The position numbers were made by a program, and so were the translations under genes. A stretch of DNA of 64,000 nucleotides from Diadema setosum. Lineage: Eukaryota; Echinodermata; Echinoidea; Diadematoida; Diadematidae. The notes under the pieces are model-generated. The model was not told the origin of the DNA, made no database searches, and was given only the letters and a program-made list of their open reading frames with translations. This document shows positions 8,101 through 43,300 of this stretch, piece after piece. The first letter of the stretch is position 1; each line of letters opens with the position of its first letter. Location: positions 12,569,327 to 12,633,326 of the forward strand of contig NC_092697.1 of the NCBI RefSeq assembly GCF_964275005.1, read 5' to 3'.

Positions 8101-11100
8101 ATTGTTGCTTCATCATGTTTTCATGTGATCAGTGATATACTTTACAGCTCAACCAGAGCATTCATACATAGACATTCTTCATCCATTACATGCCATCTCT
8201 GCAAGCCCTGAAAGGTAAATTTGCTAAACATATTTCAGAGAAACTTTTATAATGCATACACACTTTAAATGACACTTGTACCAGTTGTCAGGTTTAGGTA
8301 GAAATATTCTCTGATATTGCACGGTTTAGGTCTCCTTTGTTCATGTAGGTAAAGAATACTCACAGATCACATTATACCAATACGCATTTTACTCAACTGA
8401 ATCTACACTAGCCCAATCTGCAGTATCACACTATGTTGGTCAATCTGTTAGCCATGCATTATTTCAAATGTATGGGACTATTCAGCAATGTGGAATGATC
8501 ACATGTTCTAATTTCTTAGCCAAGTATATGCATTCAACAATCATTCAAATTTAAATAGATCTTTCACGCAGAGTCATTTACTAGAAGATTTTACTTTATG
8601 AAACCAATGGCCTTGCATGATTCCTATATGTAAAATTTGCATTAAGTTTCATTAAAATACAATACAATCTGTAGCAAATCTCTACATTTATTATGCATTT
8701 CAAAGAATGAGGAAGAAAAGGTGACATACAGCTTGCATCTCCTACTCACCTGAAATGACTGTGTTGATACACTCATAGAGCAGTGACATAGCAGAAGTGC
8801 TGTGGATTAATGAAAGCAAAAACATTCAAATTTCATTTCGTTTGAAATCAATTTTATTCACTTAGAGATTTCACTCGTAGGCAGAGTTGATGCTGGGACA
8901 TAAGGAGAGCATCCATTTTGTTTTATTTTGTTTTTATTTCTTTTTCCCCAAATGAGAGATGCCCAGATTGGAAAAGGCTATGATGTCATCATCTCAGCAT
9001 TCTCCCATTAAGTTGTACACCAAAATATTATATAACACATGTTTTGTTTTGTTTTGGTTTGGTTTTGGTTTTTGTTTTTGTTTTTGTGTTTTTTTTTTAT
9101 TTGGGGGGGGGGGGGGGGTCAATGCCAATGGCAACTTCATCCCCTCTCCCCTTGTCAGTCATAACTGCCAGCTTTACAAGAACATAATGATTTGAGGCGA
9201 AGGGCACATTTTTCCCCTAAAGATTCCCCTGATTTCTTGTGGCTGTAACAAATATCACTGATTTACGAGAACATGGGAAAACTTTACAATTCCTCTACCA
9301 TCCTACTCATCTGATGTTACTGTATTCCTACGAGGCAACATGGAACATGAAGTGGAATTATTATATATATGAAGATCTTGAGTTAGACTAGCAGGACTCT
9401 AAATGGCTCTGATTCAAGTTCGCATGACCAATACGTACAAGTGTATACATCCTTTAGGTCTGTGTGTATCTCCATCTTGAGCCAAGTGATACAACAGCAC
9501 TATGACATAAGGTGTCACTGCTAAATTTTTAAAGAGGCTGTCATATAAAAAATAGATGTAACAGGGCATTTTGTAGAGTATGCATCATCAACACATTACA
9601 TAATTGCAGTATGATCATTCAATGTGCATTTTTTTTTTCTACACTTGAGTATTCTTTCAGACTCATTATGTCTTGAAAGCAAAACTCTCTCCAGAAGGTA
9701 TTTCTGAGACTATCGATACAGCCATAAATCCAGCAGCATTGCCGTGAGACTAGTATGGCCCTACCTGTGGATGAGATTGGTGAGTGGTTCCAGCAGCTTC
9801 TTCCCTAGTCTTGGTTCCAGTGGTGTCAGGGCACCAAACTGGTGAGAGAAGGAAAAAAGAAAAGATTATCAAAAACCAAATAAACAGAGCAAAACAAATA
9901 ACAGGAATTGATAGGGCAGCATCTGCATTCTTGTTTTCATGGTAAAATTAGGTGGTAGTGGAGAGATGGATACAACGTAGCAGTCATATTCCTTGAAACC
10001 AACAAATTGACAATTGGTCGCATCATCTTCCAACTAGAAAATCGAACAGAATTTCCCATGTTAGCACAACAAGCAACTGGAAAAACAAAAAATTTGCTCA
10101 TTAATTTAACAAAAATTCATTGAACAGTAACTGCTACATGAGGATAAACTGTACCACATACGTATCAGTATCCACTGTATGTAATTAATGTATACTATTA
10201 AAACCAATCATACATTCATATCTGTAATCAACAGTTACTGTCATCAAATGTCAGCGATCTTATTCGTGTTTTGAAATAACAGAGTCCATACTTGAGGGGT
10301 AATTTCGCATTTTGGCCAGGAAACCTGTATCATGCTCTACCACGAGATTCAGCTTAAGAAGTAAAACATATGATAATACGCCTTTCTCTCTAACACAGCC
10401 CCTTCTATGTATGGCCCATGAGAGCGAGGACCAATACTTTCTGAGATCAGTAGACTGACAATCCATGAGGGGGACTCCTCACCAGTTTGATTATCTTGAT
10501 CAGCATCCAGTTGTTGGTGGACGACGTCATGAGTTTGAAGAAGAGGGGCGCCAGGGAGAGATAGTTCTTGGGATTCTTTCTCGCCAGCTCACAAATCACG
10601 TTCACGGCCGCCGACTGCACTCCTATTGTCACAATCCAGGAATAGAGCGAGCAGGGGGAGACAATTTAGTACGACTTTAAAGGTACATGTATTGTTTACC
10701 ATTGGGAGCAGTGATTTAAAAATGCTCGCGTTATCACATTTGATGCATATGTCTATGTTAGTTGTATCACAAAGCATTTTACCATATAAAAACTTTGCAA
10801 TAAAGCCTTGAATATAAGATGTCACTATTTTTCTCAATAAACCCTAACTATAGACGTTTATTCTAGAAACAATCTTATTAAAACTATTGTTCATATTTTG
10901 TATATCTAACGATACTTAACATTGATTATACTGATAATGATTTTTGCATTGGTTGTTTCTATCCCCAACTCACATTTTAGTAACTATTTTGAAGCACTAA
11001 AGCTGGGTTTTTGTATCATCTGCAAATGGTATATAATGCCTTTAATACAAAAGAGCAAAATCACTGACAGCTTGAAATATCTAAAGTTCATTTGTTTGCA

Positions 11101-14100
11101 TGAGCTTGAAATTTGATGTCTTGTACACACCATGAGATACAATGTATGCCTGACTAAAACACCAATACAAATGTATCTCAGTAATGAGTTGGCGTCCGTA
11201 GGTGACAGTGTATTGTGATTGTAACTTTACCCGCACTGTACAAACTATCAGAAAGTGATATGTATGATGTCCATTGATTTCAGGTGTACCGATGTCACTG
11301 AGAAGCTATTAGTATTAGTTGCAGTACATATCACATGGTATCAATAGATCATAAAATGTTCTCTACCTGGGTCTGGATCTTCCAGTTTCTCTTTCAGTCG
11401 AGGGAAAGCTGGCCTCAATGCATCTGGAAACTGCAATAGAGTCCATCAAACATCACAAATGAAACTTGTGACATACCTACAATGTAGGTATACATGTACA
11501 TATATACAACAGTATCATATCACATATGCCCGGCCTCATAATGGCAGCATTCATCACACGGTCTGTGTCCTTCTTTTCATTAAAGTGTAAGTGCTAGTGT
11601 AATCAAAACCGCTGATGAGGTACCAAAACACATCATATTCATAGTGATAGTGAGGGGAAAAACAAAACAAAACACAGTAGCTGCAAATCTGATTTAAATG
11701 CCTGAAGGATGAGTTTTAAGTTGTTGATTGTCACGTATCGTTCAGGTGGAAAATATTTACAGTACAATCTAAAGTTGAGCATGAATCAAAATCAGGTTTA
11801 TTGGGCACTTTCATACCATGTGCCCTGAAAAGCATCACTCTGCAAAAACATTGATAAGATATTCTTAACACATGTATCTCTGATGCATTGTATACTGGCA
11901 TTAATATTTTGATTATATTATATTTGATTTGATTGACAGGGCTGACAGAAATAGAAGATACAATACGGACTACCTTGATGAGTGCACAAAGAAACATTCT
12001 GAAGAACTACAGTACCTTGAGAAATATCTTGTACATGAGGAGCACAGCCTTCTTCCGGATGTAGGGTTTGGTAGACGCCATCTTCAAGTCCCAGCAGACA
12101 GAAAAGAACCAATATGAATCCATGCACAGAGATCTCTCACTCACATATCAATCACATTACATAATAATTGTACATGGCATAAAATTTAAATCTTACTCTT
12201 GATTGTAAGTTCACATGTCACTCATGCATTGCCTTTAGTATCTATTCTACCCATTTATGTATGATTCAGTTTGAATTTGTTGCTACTGGTTTCAGATCCC
12301 TGATTTGTAGAACTCGGTATCAATGAACGCTCATGCTGTACATTATCCCTTTGTGCAGGAAGAGTGGTGGGAGGTGATTCTGCACGTCAGTCATATATCA
12401 CATACCTACAATATAGACATGGTGACTCACGGCATAACACTGTCTACATCAAAACAAAAACAAAAACAAAATCAAGTAGAAGACATGTTCCTGTTCTATA
12501 CTTGATAATTTGGAATGCACATCTCTTGTCAAAGTATAAATTGTTCAGAGCCACAACACCTTTGCTGTACCCATTTTGGAAAAGAATCAAGCATTGAACT
12601 TACAAGAAAAATATTTCATTTATACAATAAACTAACACTGAATATCTTGAGCCACTTCTATAATTTGTGCAGCAACTTTTTAAATGTTTTCTACAACAAT
12701 GATCCAGCAAATTTTTTAGATAATTTCATTTAAGCTAGGATCTCCACTATTCACGTCAATGAATAAACATTAATGGTGAAATCTAATCTCCACACTGGCA
12801 TAAAGTACAAGAATATAAGGAACTGAATTTAAAAAAGAAATGCCGCAAACAATATGACAGCAGAGCAAATAAACACACGCAATAATGATGACATTATCAA
12901 CTTATCAAATTCTTATCTAGGCTAATATGAAGAGTTGGGAAGGGATGGAAATAAAAGGGTTTGCAGGGCACCTCTAGATAAAAATCATTTGTTGGCACAT
13001 ACAAGGGATGAAATGCAGTTTCTCTTTTGAACCACCAAATCAAAAGTACATGTGATCACAGACAAGACTGAATACACCACTTTCATACACAATATAAAAA
13101 TGTCACACAGGGATAAACTGGGACAGGAAAGGGGTGACATGTACTGAGGATTTACATTTACTCTTACATCTGCATGTTGTACATGCTACTCTTAAAGGTA
13201 CTGTTTACAATTGGGAGCAGTGATTTTTAAAAATGTTTGAGTTATCATATTTGATGCATATGTGTAGGTCAATTTATCTCAAAACATCCTACCATATGAA
13301 AATGTTGCTATAAAGCCTAAAACATAAGGAGATATCACTATTTTTCTCAAAAGATCATAACTGTGGATGGTTTATTCTAGAAACAATTTCATTATGCATG
13401 AAACTGTCGTTCACATTTTGTATATTTACGTAACAATACTAAACACTGATTATACTGATTAACATTTTTACATCTGTGGTTGTTTCTATCTTTAACTCAC
13501 AATGCAGAATTATTTTGATGCACTAAAGCCGGGTTTTTGTTATCTGCAAATGGTAAATAATGCCTTTAAAGCACACTTTGCAATTGGGTGTCTAGGTAAA
13601 CAGCACTGATTTCATGAAAAAAAAAATAATTCTGCATCCTGTAAAACTTTAAGAAGCAGAAAGATACACTATGTACAAAAAATGTACAGTTTATTAAGTA
13701 ACTACATTGTAAGCTTCACTTTTGTTTGATTTTAAGTTTGATCATTTTTCAGTTTATACTCCACACTGTAAACATACACACAAGTGTAATGATAATATTA
13801 TGGTAAATCATAATCATTGATAACTTTTTAAGTTTTCTTCATGAAGTGCAGTCTGTAGCATTAAATTTCAATTTTCCTGCAATTTACAATTTTGGACTAA
13901 ATGCCATATCTGCAGCTTGTGCCTTCCAAATAAAGCTAAAGAACAGCATACACTCCTGAAATAATTTTAATCAGATACATAAAACTAGTCATGTTTTCAT
14001 GATGAAAAACTAAACTCTAACTCTAACTCTCTAAACTCTAACCACACAAGCCTGTAGCAATCAAGTGTTGAGAGGGATGGAGACCATGAAACACAGTGTT

Positions 14101-17100
14101 TCCTTTAAGCCATTGCCCACATGAACCTGTTTGGCTACATGCAAAGTCTATGGGGATGTCAGACACTTGTTGCAAATGGTTAATAAAACCAAAATTTGGA
14201 TGCAGACTTCTGAATTGATGGTGTCTTTAAAGCACATCTTAGCAATAATGGCTTCTATGATTTTCTCTTTCATTTATGCTAGAGTGGTACCTACAATGTA
14301 TATTTTTGTACTTCAGATTTTCAGTGCAGGTAATTCATTTTTCGGTTCAAAACCAGAGAGGAAATTCTGCTTGCCTCTTTCAAGAAAAGAAATAATGTAC
14401 AAATGGTCAACAGGATTGTAAAAAGAAAGAAATATTTCCATCCAGCCTGATAAGCAAACTTAATGATAGCTCCAGACAAAGGCAAATCATTTTCACTGCA
14501 TTTTTTTTTTTAATTCATCCTAACATTCTGTAACTTTTTGTCTAAATATTCTCACTTCTAGGAATTCACTGCTAATCATGCCTTGCAAGCAACTTCAAAT
14601 AGAGTGGTTCTTTATTGATGCTGTTGCTTCATCCTGTGGTTGTCCCTGTACTGAACTTCTCAAAGTTGGATCTCCTGTTTTTTAATCTTTGGGTTTGGAG
14701 GTGGTTTTTAATGTGATCGAAAGTGAAAGTTGCCAACTGTTTGAAATGAGGTCAGTACAAGGGAAATTGAAAAATTCATCCTTGTGTATACATGTAGTCG
14801 TACATGGCATTCTGTTGGGACACCACAGCACAAACAATTGTGTGTCTAAAATGTAGATCATGACTGTAATATTGCATACGCATTTCTAAAAGTTTTCACT
14901 TGTTTTCCACACAGAAAGATCAGTACATATATATATTTTTCTTGATTTTGTACACTGTACAACATGATCAACTTCCTCTAGACATTTTTTTTTTCTTATA
15001 GAATAGCACTAAAACTATTTCAAATAAAAATAGAATGAGTGAATTTTAGATGCCAGCGTAATGCAGCATTTGGTGACGAGTCAACATTCAAACCGTTATA
15101 ACTTCAAAATATCTGTCTAATTTTGCTTGAACCATAACTTCATTGTTGCTTTGGTCTCATTTCAACCACTGAAATAAAAATCACTCCTGATCTTTGATTT
15201 TCCTTCAGGTACACAACCGTACCTATTGCAATTGTGCATGATAGAACAATGTACAGTATGATTTGAGGGCAAGGGAATAGTGCACAAATTTGGCTCCATA
15301 ATTTTACCACTACACATGGAATTACAGTAGTTTTCCCACTTTAAAATAATAACAACACAACACAGGATAAACATTCAGAATACAAAAAATCTGGCACGGC
15401 AAGGTGGATGTAACATTTCTGGTAGTATTTGGACAGAAGATTAGAGGTCTTCTATGAAAAGTAGCCTGCTGAAGTTGAATTTTAACAATTAATGACAAAT
15501 GGACCACTAATTGACAAAAGATAGACTGCACTGGTAGATCAATAACATCAAATCACAACAATACTAAAATGGAAGTTACAGGGAATAACAAGTACATAAG
15601 ACTGTTTGCATCATACATGTAAAAAGGGTGTGAAAGGTCACCTGGAACAGAGGCCAAAAGGTCAAATGGGGTCACACCACTCACCAGACTCATGAGGTCA
15701 TTGGCCAGGTCTCTGGCAAGGTCAGGGGAGGTGAAACATGCAAGTCCCGCCATGGCGACGCCCGCATCATACTGGCCGATACTGTTAATGTCCTACATGG
15801 GTGCAAGTTGGAGGGAGGTGGGATGGGACAGGGTAGGATGGGGGGGGGGGGGGGGGCAAGGCAGTGAATATCCCATGAAGGAAACAGGGTGGAGCAATGT
15901 GGCAAATATTGATGGGGGAGAAAAATTGATGAATGGAATGTTGAACGGTCAGGTGTCACACAGTGTGAACCCAGTGTAGAAGGGCGAGGGATGAGATGAA
16001 GGCAAAAATATCAATTGACAAAATGAAAATTGGACAGTGGGGGGTAAAAATGGATCCACAACAGACCAGGGCAGAAAGGGCGCAGTGTTATCATGACAGG
16101 TGAACACCAGAATTAATGTGGTATGATACCGTGAAGGGAGTATTAGCATGTCGTGTGAAGCAAGATGGTTCAGTGGGTATGAAAGAACAGATGAATATTT
16201 TCAATTGTTAATGAATGTGAAATATGGTATCAATCAGTGGAATAAAAATAGAGGTGATTTCATTAAAGGGTAAATTTAACAGTATACCATGCAAGGGGAA
16301 AAAAAAGTCAAAAAATAAATTATGATGGCAAATCCATTTTCCAGAATAAGGAATGTGGGAAAATGCAGAAAAATGAAATATCGAGAAGGGACAAAATTTA
16401 AATTTTGTATTCAAAAGTGAAAGAAAAAAAGAAAATGGGTTTGGCCAATAAAATAATTTTGTGGGGATTTGCACAATGAATTATGGAAAATGATATATTT
16501 ATGGAAGTGGCATTTGGGGGAGTTGTTCGTGTGGGATGAGATCGGTGAGTGGTTTACACAAAGGAAACAAACACAAAGGGTAAAAACAAAATAAATCAAA
16601 ATAAAACACAAAGCATGGTGGGATGTTTTCAACATGATACGAGCAGGGATTAGGTATGAAATCATATCATACAGCACATGATGGGGCGGGAGCAAATGAA
16701 GAATGTAATCATGGTACATGGGAAATGTATTTTCAATGATGATTCAAAATGATTTCAGTGCATTGGTTTGATGATGATGATGATTGCAAAAGCAATGTGT
16801 TGTAAAAGTCGATACAAAATTCAAAGTGGGCAAATGGTGGTTGAAAAAAATTATGTATTTTTTTTTAGTTTAAAGGGATGTATGAAATATTGGGTCATAA
16901 TATGCATCATGAACAGATAAATATTTGGAAGTATCAAGTGGTGTTCGGTGTGGTTTTTAGTATTGTTTGAATTATACAGCAAATGATGGCAGGCAATTTT
17001 GGGGGGAGAAATTAGTGGGACCATGGCAAGGAGGTAAGGAAAGGAGAGAAGGGAAACAAAGAACAGAAATAACACAATTACACTTTTCACCAAATAACAA

Positions 17101-20100
17101 CCATGATATTGATAATAAGTACACAGGAGGAATGAGAGGAGGTCAATTGGACACTTGGCAGACCAGCAAATGAGGTTATGTTGGCAATGCAACATACCAG
17201 TGATCATGCGACTTGCATGTCCCAAAATTCAATGTAAAATACACTCACTTTGTGCCTTTGACATCGGCTCGTAAGAGCACATCTCAGATTTAGGCTAATT
17301 GTATGGACTTCATAAACTTGTATGGGGGGGGGGGGGGGAGGAGGAAAATTATGAGAAGATTGTGTTCACAGACACGGGTTTGCGAGCATTGTCAAAAGAT
17401 CACGACTGGTCAGAATACATTGCAGTCATACCTCACTCTGCCAACTCCAAATGCCTCCCAAATAAAACATCAAAGTGGGCATAATCTGTGTGCAGGCTTT
17501 GTTTAGCATCTACACCAAGTCAGGTTTAACGCCACTTCTAAAAGAGTACATACATGTATCGAAGGGGTGAGAGCACATAATTGGTTATTCCATTTATGAT
17601 CCACATCGCGTACCACTACTCGACCAACACCACCTGTGTACTACTTGAACCAGAGAGATACCATGGAACGGCCAGCACAAGTGACAGATGGGGTATGTAC
17701 TGTACGAAAGGGGGGCGGTAGTGTCACTGTCCACACGAGGGGTTACGCCATGGAAGAGGAAGAGGCCAACTCTGTGGGGGTAGCGGCAGTCCGCCCTGCC
17801 CCCTCACTGCGCGGGTACTTACCAGTGCCATGATGTCATTGGCCAGATCATGTGACAGGTCAGAGGTCAAGATACATGACAATCCTGTCATGGCCACCCC
17901 CGTCTCATATTGGTTCTGGCTATGCAAGTCCTGTTCAGTTTTACGTTATCACAACAGATTACATGTGTTAATAATATGTTGTCATGTACATTGTGCAATA
18001 TTGAGAGGTTCACATGTATGACAATGCACTTCTTCATTGTGTAGCATTACAAATAATATAATAATAATAATAAATAGAGAGACTCTTATAAAGCGCTCAT
18101 TCTACCTAAAAAGATACTCATAGTGCTCTAAATGTATAGTGGTCTAATACAGGCAACTAGAAGCTAATCACTGGGTCTCATTTAACAGTACTGTTTACCA
18201 TTGGGAGCAGTGATTTAAAAAATGTTCGAGTTATCACATTTGATGTGTGTAGGTCAGTTGTATCACAAAATATCCTACTACTACATGTACAAGGATTTTG
18301 CAATAAAGCCTAAAATGTATGGAGATACACTGTATAACTATTTTCTCAATAAACCATTACTGTAAATGGTCTATTCTAGAAACAACTTTATTATCATTAC
18401 TGTACAAATTTTGTATATTTAATAATACTTTTAAACACTAATAGACTGATTAACCTTTTTACCCTGGTTGTTTCTATCTCTAACTCACATTTTAGAATTA
18501 TATTGATGCACTAAAGCTGGGTTTTTGTTTCATATCTCCAAATGGTAAATAATGCCTTTAAGGGCAGAATACTTGCACTATATGTACATTGTACATGTAT
18601 GACAGGGCACAAAATGACCCTCAGTATCAATACAGGTTTGTACATGAGTGCGAAAAAGCACACACCCAATAAATGTACAATGTACAATGTGAATACATGT
18701 AGGTCAATGCAATTTTAATAGTGCAAAGACTGACCAGTAAGAAAACGTGAAATTCATTAAAGGGTTGGCCTTGAAAGTGGTGTTACATGTAGATAGTAAA
18801 TCTCTAGTACAAGCCCACCATAACATGCATAATATTACTGCATCTATCACCTCACACACAGCTAATGGCAAAAAAAAATATATGACGAAGGTGGCTTGCT
18901 ACACGGTGTATCATTCATGACAACAAGAATCCTTTCTGGCAACAGGAATTGCTGAGGATAATGAGACAGATCAAAACTACAGGGGATAGGAACTCCTTCT
19001 GCAATACTTCCTGGGAGATCGGGTTGGTCTGTTCTTGCAGGTATGATGCACTTTACTCATGCTGACAGCTCGTCCACAATACATACATGATACAGAGCTG
19101 TGTACACTGCAGTCATGATGTAAAATCACCTACTAATTACAGCACAGTGCATTTAAAGTGTTCCATTCAAGGTTACAGTATACATTCCAACAGATGTTTT
19201 TGGGTGGGAAAGAGACAGGGTTTATCAGAAAGGATATGACAGAAAGAAATCACACAATATACTCCTCTGTACTAGAAGCACATAAAATTGTAGGCCTAAT
19301 ACTGAAGAAAAAGCTCTTATGATCACTAGTTTGATATCATTTCTATTTTGTATACACTGCAGTGTAACTATGTATGAGTAGACCAAACATTCATAAATCA
19401 TGTACAGGATGTAATACAACTTCGATTGGGAATGCACCATGATACAATTTTGTAATTCAGCACGTTTGGTTCAACCAGAGTAATGCATACAATCGAATAT
19501 ACAGTATGGGTTGCACATTGTACATTCAGTATCTGCATGTAAATTGTAATACATTTATGAATAAACCGAATTAGAACTCTCCATATTGCAGCGTTCAACT
19601 GCATAGCCAAGAGGAAGGAGGCTACAGGAGGATAAGAGAGAAGAAAGGAGAGACAGAAGGACAAACATAAGAATAACAAAGGAGGAGAGAGAGAAAAAAA
19701 GATAGAGAGACAGCAAGTCTGGAGAAAGCATCTGCACATCTCTCCCTCAAGTATCCTACCCATAAATATCTGAAGGGCATATCTACACTTCTCACTCTAC
19801 TCGACATAGATCTGAGCGCACACACAGGATGTAAACGAGCTGAACATTGTGCTGCAAGCATACATGTACAGTGCATCTGAAGACAGCATACAGTAAATGA
19901 TGTCTGCCACATTTTTTTCCCATCTCCTGTCATGAAAACACACAAGAATAATAACCAGAAGAAGAAAAAAAAAAATAACCAGGCTGTATCCCAATTTCCA
20001 CAGGCCAAGCAAGAGAAGCAGATGCAATTATAATGACCTTGCTCTTTAGAAGGCCTGGACCAAACCAAGCGAGGCTGGATGAAAAAAAAAAAAATGATTA

Positions 20101-23100
20101 CTTGAGGTGAGGCCCACACAATTCTCTTATGGGCTCAGGCGGAGCAGTATGTGCTGGAAGTCTAATGGTAAGAATTTACATTATTCATGCAATATTCCTC
20201 TACAATGAACTTGCAGTTTGCTGTACTTGTAATCTTTGAATAGTCACTGGGGCTCTTTTTGACAGCATGCAAATGCTCGCAGACTGCTTTGAGTGGATTT
20301 TCCGGCGTCCACTTCTGGGATTCTATCTAGCCCGTGCTCTCATTAACTGATTAGAAGGTATACTCTTCAATTAGTAATGGTTTGAACGACGTCAACTGAA
20401 GGGATCGGATTTCCAGAGGCAATCTGGCTGCAGAAATCATCACCATGCATCATTAATCTGGCAACTCAGAATTTCACTGCTCATCTTTAATATAAAGAAT
20501 GATTGAATAGAATGGGTTGAATTCATTAACTCTACACAAAATCAGAAACAGATTTAAGAAAATTGGCCAATTTAGGGGGAGGGGGGTAGGTAAGCAGAAA
20601 TTTTTTGATGAGGTATCATATTTCAAACAAATTTTTGAATAGAAAAAATTAAATTTTCGGAAATTCTCCAACCAAAGCATGTTAATGACAAAAAGCTGAA
20701 ATTAAAGGACAAGTTCACCTTCATATACATGTGGATTGAGTGAAGGCAACAATGTAAGTAGAACACATCAGTGAAAGTTTGGGGAAAATCCGACAATCCG
20801 TTCAAAAGTTATGAATTTTTAAAATATCTGTGCAATCACTGCTGGAGGAGAAGACTACTACAGTGTATGATGTCACATGCGTACAACAATATGAGGAAAA
20901 TAAAAAGAGAATTTCACAAAACTTGACTTTTTGAAAAAAGTGCACATTTCCTCGACTTGTTACTGACTTATGTTAGGGGTAATATTATTCCCCTTGACTT
21001 CTGAAAGAGAGAAGTCAAGCGTTCTTTTATCATGTGAGAAAAGTTAATATATATTGAATTTTCTTTATACTTTCTTTATATAGCTGTACTCATATGACAT
21101 CACAAGCTATAGTAGTCTTCTCATCCAGCCGTGACTGAGTAGAAACTTCAAAAATTCATAACTTTTGAACGGATTGTCCGATTTTCCTCAAACTCTCATT
21201 GATGTGTTCTACTAAATATTACAATGTACTCCATTCACTCAACCCACATGTCTATGAAGGTGAACTTGTCCTTTAAAGTGAATATTTCAGCCTACCTCAG
21301 GAAATATCATTATCAACAATGAATAGCAAAATCTTAACATACTAAGAAGATATATGGCACCAAACCCCAGAAATGTAGTCTGTGGAATTTAATTCCAGCT
21401 GCCAAACATGACAATCCTCCATAATTTATCATTTCTTCTGTCATTTGAATGAAAACATCGAACATGGGTATGTCTGAGCTATGTAGGTGGATGATTGTGT
21501 GAAAACTGAGGAATGGACAAAGGGAGGACATACCTTTCTGATCATATTGGTGGTCAGCATGAGGACATCCGTCCCCTCATGGAAGCTCTGGGCGGCGGCC
21601 AGGTAGCCAATCCGCTTGAAGGTGAACTTTGGCGAGCTCATGACCTCGATGATGTTGAACGCCGCCCAGCTGATGTCGTAGCCCAACATATTCAGCTGTG
21701 GCAAGGAATGAAAAGACCCATGATGCAAATTAATCACATGAAATGAGAGACGGAGGAATTACTGTATTTTGAAGCAATTGCATCGAGACTCCAACCCAAA
21801 GTATCTTTCAAATGGGAGATTCGCCTGCTTGGACCCCTAAGCAAACTGAAGTCTCTGATCGCATGAACACACACACACACAGCATTTTGCGCATGGACCC
21901 ACAACATCCGCTTGCGGCTGGGGTCTAAGGCCCACATCATCATCAGGTTCGTGAGAGCTCCTGGGTTATAGATGCTCTCTTGTGGTATCTCAGCCTTTAA
22001 ATTTTGGATGAACCTACATGTACTACGACTCATTACATTACCCATTATCAAAATCATTATCAAAATCTTTTCTGCTCATTTTGGAAAGCCCCCCCCCCCC
22101 CCCACCCCCATTTACATGTATGACTGACACAAGTTATGTACATGTACTGTGGTTTAAGACCAAATAGGTGATACATGCATGAAATGCTTTACTTTATATG
22201 GTTGGACCTACTACTCATCGACCGCCTAATGTTTATTTGCTTGATAAGAATATTTAACACTGAAATTCACGTAAAAAACTTGACCTACGTGATTGAGAAA
22301 ATCCAGCACTATCAAATGCCGTTGTTCCCTTTTCGATTCGAAGTTTCAGTGCAAAAATATCGCCGTCGAACTTGCGTGGCCCCGTTTCAGCTCCCCGCGG
22401 TAAAGCTCCTTATTGAGATCGACCATTGTTTTTGCATTGACAATGCACGCAAACCGAGTTGTATTGAACACCGTGTTGTACGAAGCTTTTTAGAAACTTA
22501 GACATTACATTACGAATCGGTGAAAATATTCATTTGAAATTTTGTCCTTGATTAAAACCATTAATGAACAGTGAATTTTCGCGTTTTCCCACACCATCCT
22601 CATCAACGGTCAAAGCCAATCCATTTTTATGTGCTCTGCGCGCAGTGAAGTGCGTACAAAGCGTTCTGTGTGCCAATGTATACGCGGTCGGTTTCAAAAA
22701 GGGTGGTCGATATGTAGTAGGGCTACCATACTGCCTCCTCCCCCTATCTCTCAGTATATACCGCAGTCATGCCTGAATAAAGGCCACCGTGTATGGGATT
22801 GCACATGCCTGCATGTACACATGTAGTATTATCATGAGGACCTGACACACGAGTGTCAACAAAGAAGGTTTCTTATCAGGTACTCAGGGGAGGCAAAACC
22901 AGCGTTGTTTACTCTAAATCACATGGTACTATTTGCACTCTCTTTTCGCACTTTTTTTCTTTAGCCTATAACCAATCTCTGGTATGACATTGGGAAATAA
23001 TGCACTTTAATACCTGGGCTAAACATTCATTAACAATTTTTCAAAATGGAGGCTACCACAGGTAATAGCAACCTAGCCGATGGTACTGAATTCTTTTCTT

Positions 23101-40322: not shown

Positions 40323-43300
40323 CTGATGGTGAGAAAGGACACAACATGATAATGAAACATAGTTTGCATTTGTCAAGTCCTTGGTTTATATTCATTTTAT
40401 AAACTTGCACAAAACGCTGCTGCTGCTTTCCACACAGTTTAACTTATTTACATTTATAACATACTTAAATTCATAATGTACAATATTCATTTTGCCTAAA
40501 ACATAATTTTGCTTATGACTGGACATATGTAAAGTGTATTGAGTGGTAGTTAGCACCGTCATATCGCTATCAATGGTGACCAAGCGATATTTTATCATTT
40601 TATTTTTATACACCTCTGTGAAAATGGCTGCTGCAGAATCTAAAATGCCTATACATTTGAAATTCTTTTGACTACAAGGATCTGCTTCATCATTTTATAA
40701 AACATATAATACACATCACTGTAGTATGATTAATACCCACACTAGGTATATATGGTGTACTTCTGAAACAGTCTAAACACTCTCAGCTATCACCTCAGGC
40801 ATGTTGGACTGTTCCAAGAACTTTGTGTGAGTGATTTTTGCTCATGCCTTTACTGATGTGTATTATTTGCAAACTATACCATCAAAGTAAACTGAAATGA
40901 ATCTGACTATAGCATCTCTGCTAAATTTTATCAACTACATATCAGAAAGTCAATCACAAAGGTTGTTCTTCGGCCATGCATGCACTGCTCATCTTTGTAT
41001 TTACGTCTTTTGGTTATTGCTGTTGCTCTGGAAATTTTTTGTTAGTTGAAGAGCACAAAATATGAAATGATTTTACGTGTTGCTTGAAGGTTTGGATGGT
41101 GAAGTAAATGAGGGAGAAAGGTTTGCACTAGCACCATGTGTACGTAGTCTTTGTAGCCTGTAGGGATTGAGGCTTGACCAAAGAAAAGCCTACAAAGAGG
41201 AGAGTTGAGGAGGGAAGCGACATACAGTGTAGGGAGAATGTAAGGAAGGCAAATAGTATTAAACAAGTAATAACAGGGGTAGCAGAGAGCTGAAGCTGAA
41301 ATTGCACTAGAGGAGATGGGAAAAAGGGGGACAGAAGGAAATGATATTGTGTGATGGCTTCTGACCTGCTTCCTTCGCCAGGTCAATGTAGTCTCCACGG
41401 GCAGATTTAGACGGGTTGGTGTTATCCACAACCACACACTTCCCCGCCTGAATCGCATCTGCCGTGGCCTTCAGACACTTGGCAGGCGTGTTCAGGGTGT
41501 CCCGGTTCACCCAGGTGTAGCCATGAGGGACCAGGAACCGCTTGGCAAAGAAGCTCTTTCCTGATGCGGGTGGTCCCACCATCAAGACCAGGTCTTTGCT
41601 CTGCAATAACATCCAGTAATGGGATATTAGAAATGATAGTGTCTTCACTCACAAGTTCCAATGCAAACAACTGATAAATAGTTTTTGATGAAATGAGAAT
41701 GATAAATATGATTTAGCTTTATATTCATCTTCACTATTCTATATGTTCCATGTGAATCCATTCATGTTTGCTATTAAAACTATCATAGGCTCAAGTGTTT
41801 CTTCCAAAATTATCATACTTCATATTTAAGTTTTAAAATGCTTCAACATAAACATAAGCCCTACAAATGCAGCTTGCTTCCCAGCTAATTTCATGACTCC
41901 TTCTTTTTTACTCTTCTCAGCTCTGTGAAGACCTGCAAAATATGAGGTATTGTCTTTTTATTTGCACTATTTTCAAATTTTTCAACAATGCTGTAATGTA
42001 ATTTTCAAGATTATTGCAATTGACAGTTCAGTATCCCTCCACAGACCTCCCTCCTCCAATTAAAAAACATTCTGAGACCCTCAAACACTACTGTCTCTGC
42101 AGCCTTACCTTCTTGTGGTAGTCACTTGCAGGCTTTTTATTCTTGGCTTCTTCCAGTGCCTTCTTGGGATCACAGGAATGCCAATCAAATGGGACTGCCT
42201 TCTCGCCGAGGAACAACTCTTCCGGTGTATAGAACTGGACTCCAATGTTGATGGCAAACATGCGGTCAGAGCAAGAGAAATCCCGCGGTTTGCCCGGGGC
42301 CCAGTTCTTGGGCCGGCCCGCCGCATCTCCGACGTACATACACTTTGAGATGTCGAGTTTCACGCCATCGTTCTCCTTCTCAACCATGTAGTCCCACATG
42401 AGAGTGGCTGGCTTGCGGTAGTGATTTTCTCCAGTTGCAGCAAAGCACTGTAAAATGAACAAAACAGATTAACCCTTCAAAAAGCACACTTACAGCCAAG
42501 TTCAGGTTACTTGCAATGTCAACATAATACCAAAATAAAAGATGGAAGCAGCAAATTTCACTAAACATGGGGTTGAACCTCATTACAATGAGGAGATGAA
42601 AATCACAATTATCTTGTTACTGTATAATACTACATCAGGTTTCTCATTATATCAGGGTACAACAACAAAGAAATGTTTAAAGTTGGGAGCTGTAATATCA
42701 CCTCGTCCAAGAAGGGTTTTGGCATATCAGCGTTGGTGGAACCTGGGGGCCCGGGGGGCTCATCCCCCCCCCCCCCCAACTTTTGTAGTTAAGTTTTTGA
42801 TGTGTGCCAGCTGATGAGTGCAGGAAACAGCCTTTTTCTTTTTCTTTCTTTTTGTTTTTTGCTTGTCAGCTGATGAAACCGGAAAGTGGCACCAGAAAAA
42901 TAAAGTGGGCCCCCTCACTTTTCAAAATGTGGCGCAGGCCATGTATATGATGCCCAACCTCTCGATAACAAGGTTTCCCTGTATCATTGTAGATGCAGCA
43001 TGATACTGTACGAGCTGAAATTTTCGCGAATTTCGCGAGTCGCCTTTGAAACGCGAAAATAACAACACTCGAAAATAACAACAAATAACAGCAAATACTT
43101 ACGTTCAGTTAAACCGTCGCAACCGCAAAATTAACAACACGCGAAAATGTCCTCCAAGTAGCAATTCGCGAAAATATCTGTACGCGAAAATTTTAGCTCG
43201 TACAGTAGAGTGGAGTTATGCATGAGTGATTTGAATTATGAAAGTGAGGAGGCACACATACAAGTATTTATACCAACCCACACCCAGACATAAACACATA

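Follow-up and report, generated by a model that had tools for sequence, protein, structure and literature searches.

Does the gene for the delta subunit of AP-3, a core vesicle-coat subunit, hold two alternative versions of one exon in a sea urchin, and what could decide between them? The question is raised by a stretch of 64,000 nucleotides (nt) of Diadema setosum DNA (contig NC_092697.1, positions 12,569,327 to 12,633,326; here called the window), in which a sequence-only reading had picked out two similar exons, termed A and B below, and had proposed that they are probably used in a mutually exclusive manner. We found that the duplication is real and ancient. More striking than the exclusivity of the two exons, and the best clue to how the choice between them may be made, is a zone free of the dinucleotide AG ahead of exon B, which suggests an unusually long-range, probably regulated choice between A and B. 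Papers are cited below by their PMC numbers, for what is stated in the parts of their texts that were at hand.

The exon pair of the AP-3 delta gene

The gene on the minus strand of the window is AP-3 delta, and both alternatives are versions of the same delta segment. The joined exons matched Adaptin_N (PF01602, 2.2e-85), and the best PDB matches were human AP-3 delta chains with 481.6 bits; AP-1 gamma, the highest-scoring of the other adaptins, reached 105. With exon B included, 251/251 residues encoded in the window were identical to the D. setosum database protein P0124, which is matched at 94.9-100% by 15 further blocks downstream of the window. Exons A and B are each 108 nt long, have phase 0-0 and lie between the end of exon 3 (21534) and the start of the next exon (12081); AG precedes both, and the donors are gtaagt for A and gtgagt for B (Table 1). 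The coordinates, length, phase and GT-AG sites given for both exons in the sequence-only reading were all reproduced, as was its count of 20 identical residues in 36. Its placement of the segment at residues 121-156 agreed with the junctions found in comparison with P0124 (120.0 and 156.0). At the DNA level the exons share 71 of 108 positions, and their differences are spread over codon positions 1, 2 and 3 as 16, 5 and 16; this sparing of second positions is as expected for coding sequence under constraint.

Table 1. Positions in the window of the exon pair, its neighbouring exons and the parts of the intron between A and B
Feature	Positions	Strand	Remarks
Upstream exon shared by both forms (AP-3 delta exon 3)	21534..21695	minus	
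Exon A, 36-residue alternative DLHSQNQYETGVAMTGLSCILTSDLSHDLANDIMAL	17823..17930	minus	strong donor CTG/gtaagt, weak acceptor tract
First part of A-B intron, between the donor of A and the AG bounding the zone	17083..17822	minus	ordinary AG content
AG exclusion zone, 1,288 nt	15795..17082	minus	ends at exon B 3' splice site AG (15794-15793)
Predicted distant branch-point region of exon B	17012..17082	minus	zone's most pyrimidine-rich 40 nt, CTTAC and CTAAT
Exon B, 36-residue alternative DINSIGQYDAGVAMAGLACFTSPDLARDLANDLMSL	15685..15792	minus	version in D. setosum database protein P0124
Next exon downstream, shared by both forms (MASTKPYIRKK...)	12016..12081	minus	aligned to start of ARF1 site 2

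The homology of A and B to the delta segment is beyond chance. A profile of the segment, made from database relatives and the window's own exon A and run in six frames on 264 kb of the genome, scored A with 68.0 bits (i-Evalue 5e-21) and B with 67.0 bits (i-Evalue 1e-20), and the sole further significant match was an exon of another adaptin with 19.8 bits. A search of the whole genome (913 Mb) with exon A and its flanks returned A, B, the next exon of the locus and one weak adaptin match (E 0.11). Adjacent, homologous and equal in length and phase, A and B are tandem duplicated exons, an assignment for which the D1 repeat family forms part of the basis. A candidate for a dead third copy in the A-B intron (LQCILTSRDLLTMLAN, 17425-17378, tblastn E 0.67) was rejected, as it was absent from the best profile hits; in a shuffle test for a third copy in the 739 nt between A's donor and the AG-free zone, the exon A score was reached by 26/300 shuffles and the exon B score by 232/300.

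An AG-free zone of 1,288 nt ahead of exon B

Not a single AG occurs in the 1,288 nt up to the acceptor of exon B, where 30.0 would be expected from the zone's own composition (Poisson P about 1e-13). At the other resolved acceptors of the gene (three poorly resolved junctions were dropped), the AG-free length was 20-82 nt for 19 and 96 nt for exon A. Of 29,928 AG-free runs counted over 528 kb (both strands of the window and of 20 stretches of 10 kb, of which three adjoin the window, six are at adaptin loci and 11 are arbitrary), the zone is the longest; the second-longest run, rich in TCTA microsatellite, measured 475 nt and the third 229 nt. Upstream in the same intron (17083..17822), AG was seen 34 times vs 37.9 expected. 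Within the zone, GG, GA and GT are near expectation and AG is nil. A transposon or dispersed repeat as the source of the zone was not supported, its sole match in the genome being the zone itself (simple repeats and very common words were skipped); the 739 nt upstream of it likewise match only themselves, and the same search with intron 3 revealed a dispersed element. Being longer than the 100 nt at least required of such a zone, far above the nearest AG-free run upstream (1,288 vs 69 nt) and not a repeat, the stretch is an AG exclusion zone.

Sites of the form CCCCC number 19 in the zone, 14 in the 739 nt upstream, three in intron 3 and none in the intron after B. Longer C-runs lie on the minus strand at 15833-15859, about 40 nt before exon B, and at 17317-17343, upstream of the AG-free zone. 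For TGCATG the zone shows no enrichment, with one occurrence in 1,289 nt vs four in the 3,603 nt of intron 3.

A long AG exclusion zone may indicate a distant branch point, because a new AG that arises downstream of a branch point tends to become a splice site, and such zones go with alternative splicing (PMC1431707). Skipping is more frequent among exons whose branch points are distant (PMC2991248). Judged by its sequence, the zone ahead of exon B may be the signature of a distant branch point, possibly more than 1.2 kb away. Within the zone, pyrimidines are densest in a 40-nt stretch at the 5' end, and the candidate branch-point motifs, CTTAC with its A at 17035 and CTAAT with its A at 17012, stand 1,243 and 1,220 nt from exon B.

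The swapped segment is a helix pair between two ARF1 sites

In an AlphaFold2 model of a relative, P0003 (87% identical to the query, mean predicted local distance difference test score 89.1), the segment comprises residues 122-157 and is modelled as a loop followed by helices 128-141 and 144-157, the second of which ends at the end of the exon. By this model, the swapped segment is one HEAT-type helix pair. An alignment to 9c58_D places it at residues 119-154 of human delta. Two ARF1 sites have been described in delta, site 1 with F77, M110 and L111 and site 2 with H157, K159, R163 and R187, and mutation of either made delta cytosolic in cells (PMC13178560). The exon is framed by these two sites and ends three residues before site 2. 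The sequence-only reading had put the segment into a part of the trunk near Arf contacts, and this can now be said more precisely: the helix pair adjoins Arf-binding residues and lies between ARF1 sites 1 and 2. A natural pair of proteins in which one helix pair is swapped between two ARF1 contacts would offer a ready means of studying the way in which the AP-3 coat is organised by ARF1.

Age and distribution of the two types

Three protein searches, of which the best 120 matches each (of 429, 3,574 and 1,847) were taken, yielded 319 database proteins, all of them cluster representatives. The segment was located by a flank pattern in 280 of these (39 were without the pattern) and is 36 residues long in 278, 37 in one and 72 in one. 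The protein with 72 residues is isoform X2 of the crinoid Antedon mediterranea (P0123), in which an A-like version is followed by a B-like version in the same order as the exons of the window. The same pair, which the sequence-only reading had suggested should be sought in relatives, is thus present in Antedon isoform X2 among the database proteins.

Eleven echinoderm proteins were recognised, nine by name and two (P0125 and P0243) by sequence. The B-type is found in eight, namely those of Diadema, Strongylocentrotus, Lytechinus, Patiria, Asterias and Apostichopus as well as P0125 and P0243, the A-type in two (Acanthaster and Anneissia) and both types in that of Antedon. When the four A-type segments, including A of the window, were compared with the nine B-type segments, no residue was common to the two types at ten of the 36 positions (human positions 120, 121, 123, 128, 136, 139, 140, 141, 151 and 153), and at positions 128, 136, 140, 141 and 151 each type is uniform. 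In a tree of 25 segments, which rests on only 36 columns and lacks Ciona because the flank pattern missed it, all nine B-types form one clade (96/92), and the A-types group with isoform X2 of the hemichordate Ptychodera flava (P0135; 90/95 for the five). A sister relationship of Antedon A and B was rejected by the approximately unbiased test (p-AU 0.000125). Of the possible recent duplications, one in crinoids only is thus rejected and one in Diadema only is disfavoured (p-AU 0.091). At the 20 residues shared by A and B, the same codon is used in 13, vs an expectation of 10.1 derived from seven further exons of the gene, and the synonymous codons of the two exons look close to saturation.

The simplest reading of these sequences is that the duplication preceded the split of crinoids from the other echinoderms (Pelmatozoa/Eleutherozoa). 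It may even predate the branching of hemichordates, given that the Ptychodera segment groups with the A-types, and exon A is perhaps nearer to the ancestral state than B. That the duplication is old and retained, as had been supposed from the divergence of the two copies, is borne out by the distinct A and B residues found across echinoderm classes and by the presence of both types in a crinoid. No report of the exon pair in AP-3 delta was found in the titles and abstracts of the literature searched, which lies mostly outside subscription journals.

One exon, the other or both

A single copy of the segment is present in 10 of the 11 recognised echinoderm proteins and in 279 of the 280 segments found. 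P0125 (1,258 aa on a contig of 4,707 nt) and P0243 (1,044 aa on 3,677 nt) contain B only; a gene of this kind with its introns would not fit on such short contigs, which are therefore probably spliced mRNAs carrying B alone. Isoform names are those given in the database, and because the proteins compared are cluster representatives, the alternative exon may be present in further isoforms of a species. Double inclusion is disfavoured neither by the frame, which a length of 108 nt preserves with none, one or both exons, nor by a short A-B intron, which measures 2,030 nt. Steric exclusion would require a branch point within about 50 nt of the upstream donor; as the zone starts 739 nt away from the donor of A, a steric block of the OGDH type does not explain either/or use. 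Pairing within the introns does not appear to be the enforcer either: only two inverted-repeat pairs of at least 24 nt were found between 12083 and 21533, both of them within one element of intron 3. We regard exclusivity of A and B as plausible but unproven, and where it applies it is probably a strong regulated bias and not a physical block. Hence, of the proposal that the gene makes two AP-3 delta forms, two possible forms from one gene are supported, and strict exclusivity is not shown, given Antedon isoform X2 with both exons.

We propose that, through the ancient tandem exon duplication, one AP-3 delta gene would produce two versions of the trunk, distinguished by a single helix pair. 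Exon B would be spliced with the aid of a branch point and a pyrimidine tract that lie close to the 5' end of the zone and over 1.2 kb away from the acceptor, and would be the default but skippable exon, repressible by factors bound in the long zone. Exon A, with its strong donor and weak acceptor, would be used when B is skipped, and the two delta forms might tune ARF1-dependent recruitment or the packing of the coat. The account that combines a duplication before the divergence of crinoids and eleutherozoans, a helix-pair swap between the ARF1 sites, B as default through a distant branch point and A upon skipping of B is the one we favour, and we consider it reasonably probable. Appreciably more speculative, and to be held as a tentative extension, is the claim that exon B of echinoderms is spliced across a gap of 1.2-1.3 kb in a regulated switch that exchanges the one helix pair lying between the ARF1 sites, provides echinoderm cells with two AP-3 coats that differ in packing or in ARF1-dependent recruitment, and has been kept since the origin of living echinoderms. 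If true, this gap between branch point and acceptor would be longer than any mapped case in the cited papers.

Evidence against the model and alternative explanations

Several observations weigh against the favoured account. Its argument for a distant branch point is weakened by YTNAY motifs 73 and 84 nt from exon B: there are none at 12-60 nt, but a motif at that distance is also missing in 2/20 other acceptors, so that a nearer branch point is possible. The composition of the zone is peculiar as well, with 9.5% G, 12 CG seen vs 34.5 expected, CT and TA below and TG and CA above expectation. The candidate branch points are 787-810 nt from A's donor, the start of the zone only slightly less. 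In the tree, Diadema A and B as sisters are not rejected, and the A-types form no clade in the best topology, though a single A clade is not rejected either (p-AU 0.29). Finally, Antedon isoform X2 joins A and B, and the D. setosum model P0124, from a cluster of one member, carries B alone. Part of this evidence would be expected if the missing AG reflected base composition or some other RNA element, exon B using an ordinary nearby branch point. The YTNAY motifs, the low G, the depleted CG, CT and TA and a GG-free run of 575 nt inside the zone fit such an origin, and one human zone of 369 nt has been attributed to a repeat (PMC1431707). What makes this explanation unlikely is that AG is nil even when the zone's own composition is allowed for, at unremarkable frequencies of GG, GA and GT, that the zone ends precisely at the acceptor of B, that AG is ordinary just upstream, with its next AG-free run of 69 nt, and that the zone matched only itself in the genome.

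Two further alternatives concern the exons. Exon A could be a fading relic in Diadema, with B effectively constitutive and A rarely or never spliced, both having been used in the echinoderm ancestor; lineage-specific loss of one copy would also explain the proteins with A only or B only. The use of B in P0124 agrees with this, as do the acceptor tract of exon A, whose pyrimidine fraction of 0.35 at -23..-4 is the lowest among the 21 acceptors examined in the gene, the H of Diadema A at human position 145, where 95 of 101 unique other sequences have R, and the greater divergence of A-types between species (24/36 residues identical between Diadema and Antedon vs 30/36 for B). However, A is fully open, has a strong donor and scores on a par with B against the family profile, and it has kept those 24 residues in common with crinoid A across the deepest divergence of living echinoderms; in an unconstrained stretch so old, the reading frame and the splice sites would be expected to have decayed. 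We therefore give the relic a low probability, similar to that of a compositional origin of the zone. Lower still is that of the exons not being exclusive at all, some or all mRNAs holding both and thereby adding one helix pair between the ARF1 sites. Antedon isoform X2 with its tandem A and B is the precedent, each exon encodes a whole helix pair in frame, and nothing steric stands between A's donor and the predicted branch point. Yet single copies prevail throughout the echinoderm proteins and the segments at large (10/11 and 279/280), and an extra repeat would be expected to alter the spacing of the ARF1 sites.

Other features of the window

An element of about 570 nt with inverted repeats occupies 20702-21276 in intron 3 and has dozens of copies in the genome with 92-95% identity. 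The exon pair is flanked by two direct copies, at 13192-13569 and 18182-18561, that have the same orientation, are about 83-91% alike in pieces and look like a dispersed element, of which a stretch near 10690-11050 resembles a third copy. An open frame at 42091-42468 on the minus strand encodes a polynucleotide kinase 3'-phosphatase domain (PF08645, 6e-28) and is probably part of a PNKP gene that shares its strand with AP-3 delta and lies upstream of it.

Comparison with known systems

Like the tandem duplicated exon substitutions of human genes, A and B are homologous tandem exons whose products differ in one short region (PMC9741552, PMC5740500); AP3D1 is absent from the main texts of both of these papers. 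The duplicated exons 3 and Ab of U2AF1 are similar in arrangement, and the choice between them depends on the organisation of branch point and pyrimidine tract. Their double-inclusion transcripts are lowered by nonsense-mediated decay, whereas double inclusion in AP-3 delta is in frame (PMC5224494). In alpha-tropomyosin, alpha-actinin and PTB, as in the AP-3 delta gene, an alternative exon is preceded by a large AG exclusion zone, but the branch points described as mapped are there 100-400 nt from the 3' splice site (PMC1431707), unlike the predicted distance of more than 1.2 kb here. Zones above 500 nt have been described for Fugu PTB exon 11 (590 nt) and, as a prediction, for PTPRS (1,126 nt, with 229 nt in mouse) (PMC1431707). 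The A-B intron bears on the distance over which the spliceosome can search from branch point to AG, and 1,288 nt without AG that end exactly at an acceptor suggest that a very long search has been selected for.

The closest likeness is to exons 4a and 4b of OGDH, which are also duplicated and of which the downstream one lies behind an extended AG exclusion zone (in fish about 280 nt), with a long pyrimidine tract, distant branch points and an either/or choice (PMC7969005). In OGDH the branch points are 25-41 nt from the upstream donor, and exclusivity is enforced sterically (PMC7969005). The zone of AP-3 delta differs in its length of 1,288 nt and in starting 739 nt from the upstream donor. 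A distant branch point and steric mutual exclusion, which are often tied together, are separated in this intron, because the signature of the former appears without the geometry needed for the latter.

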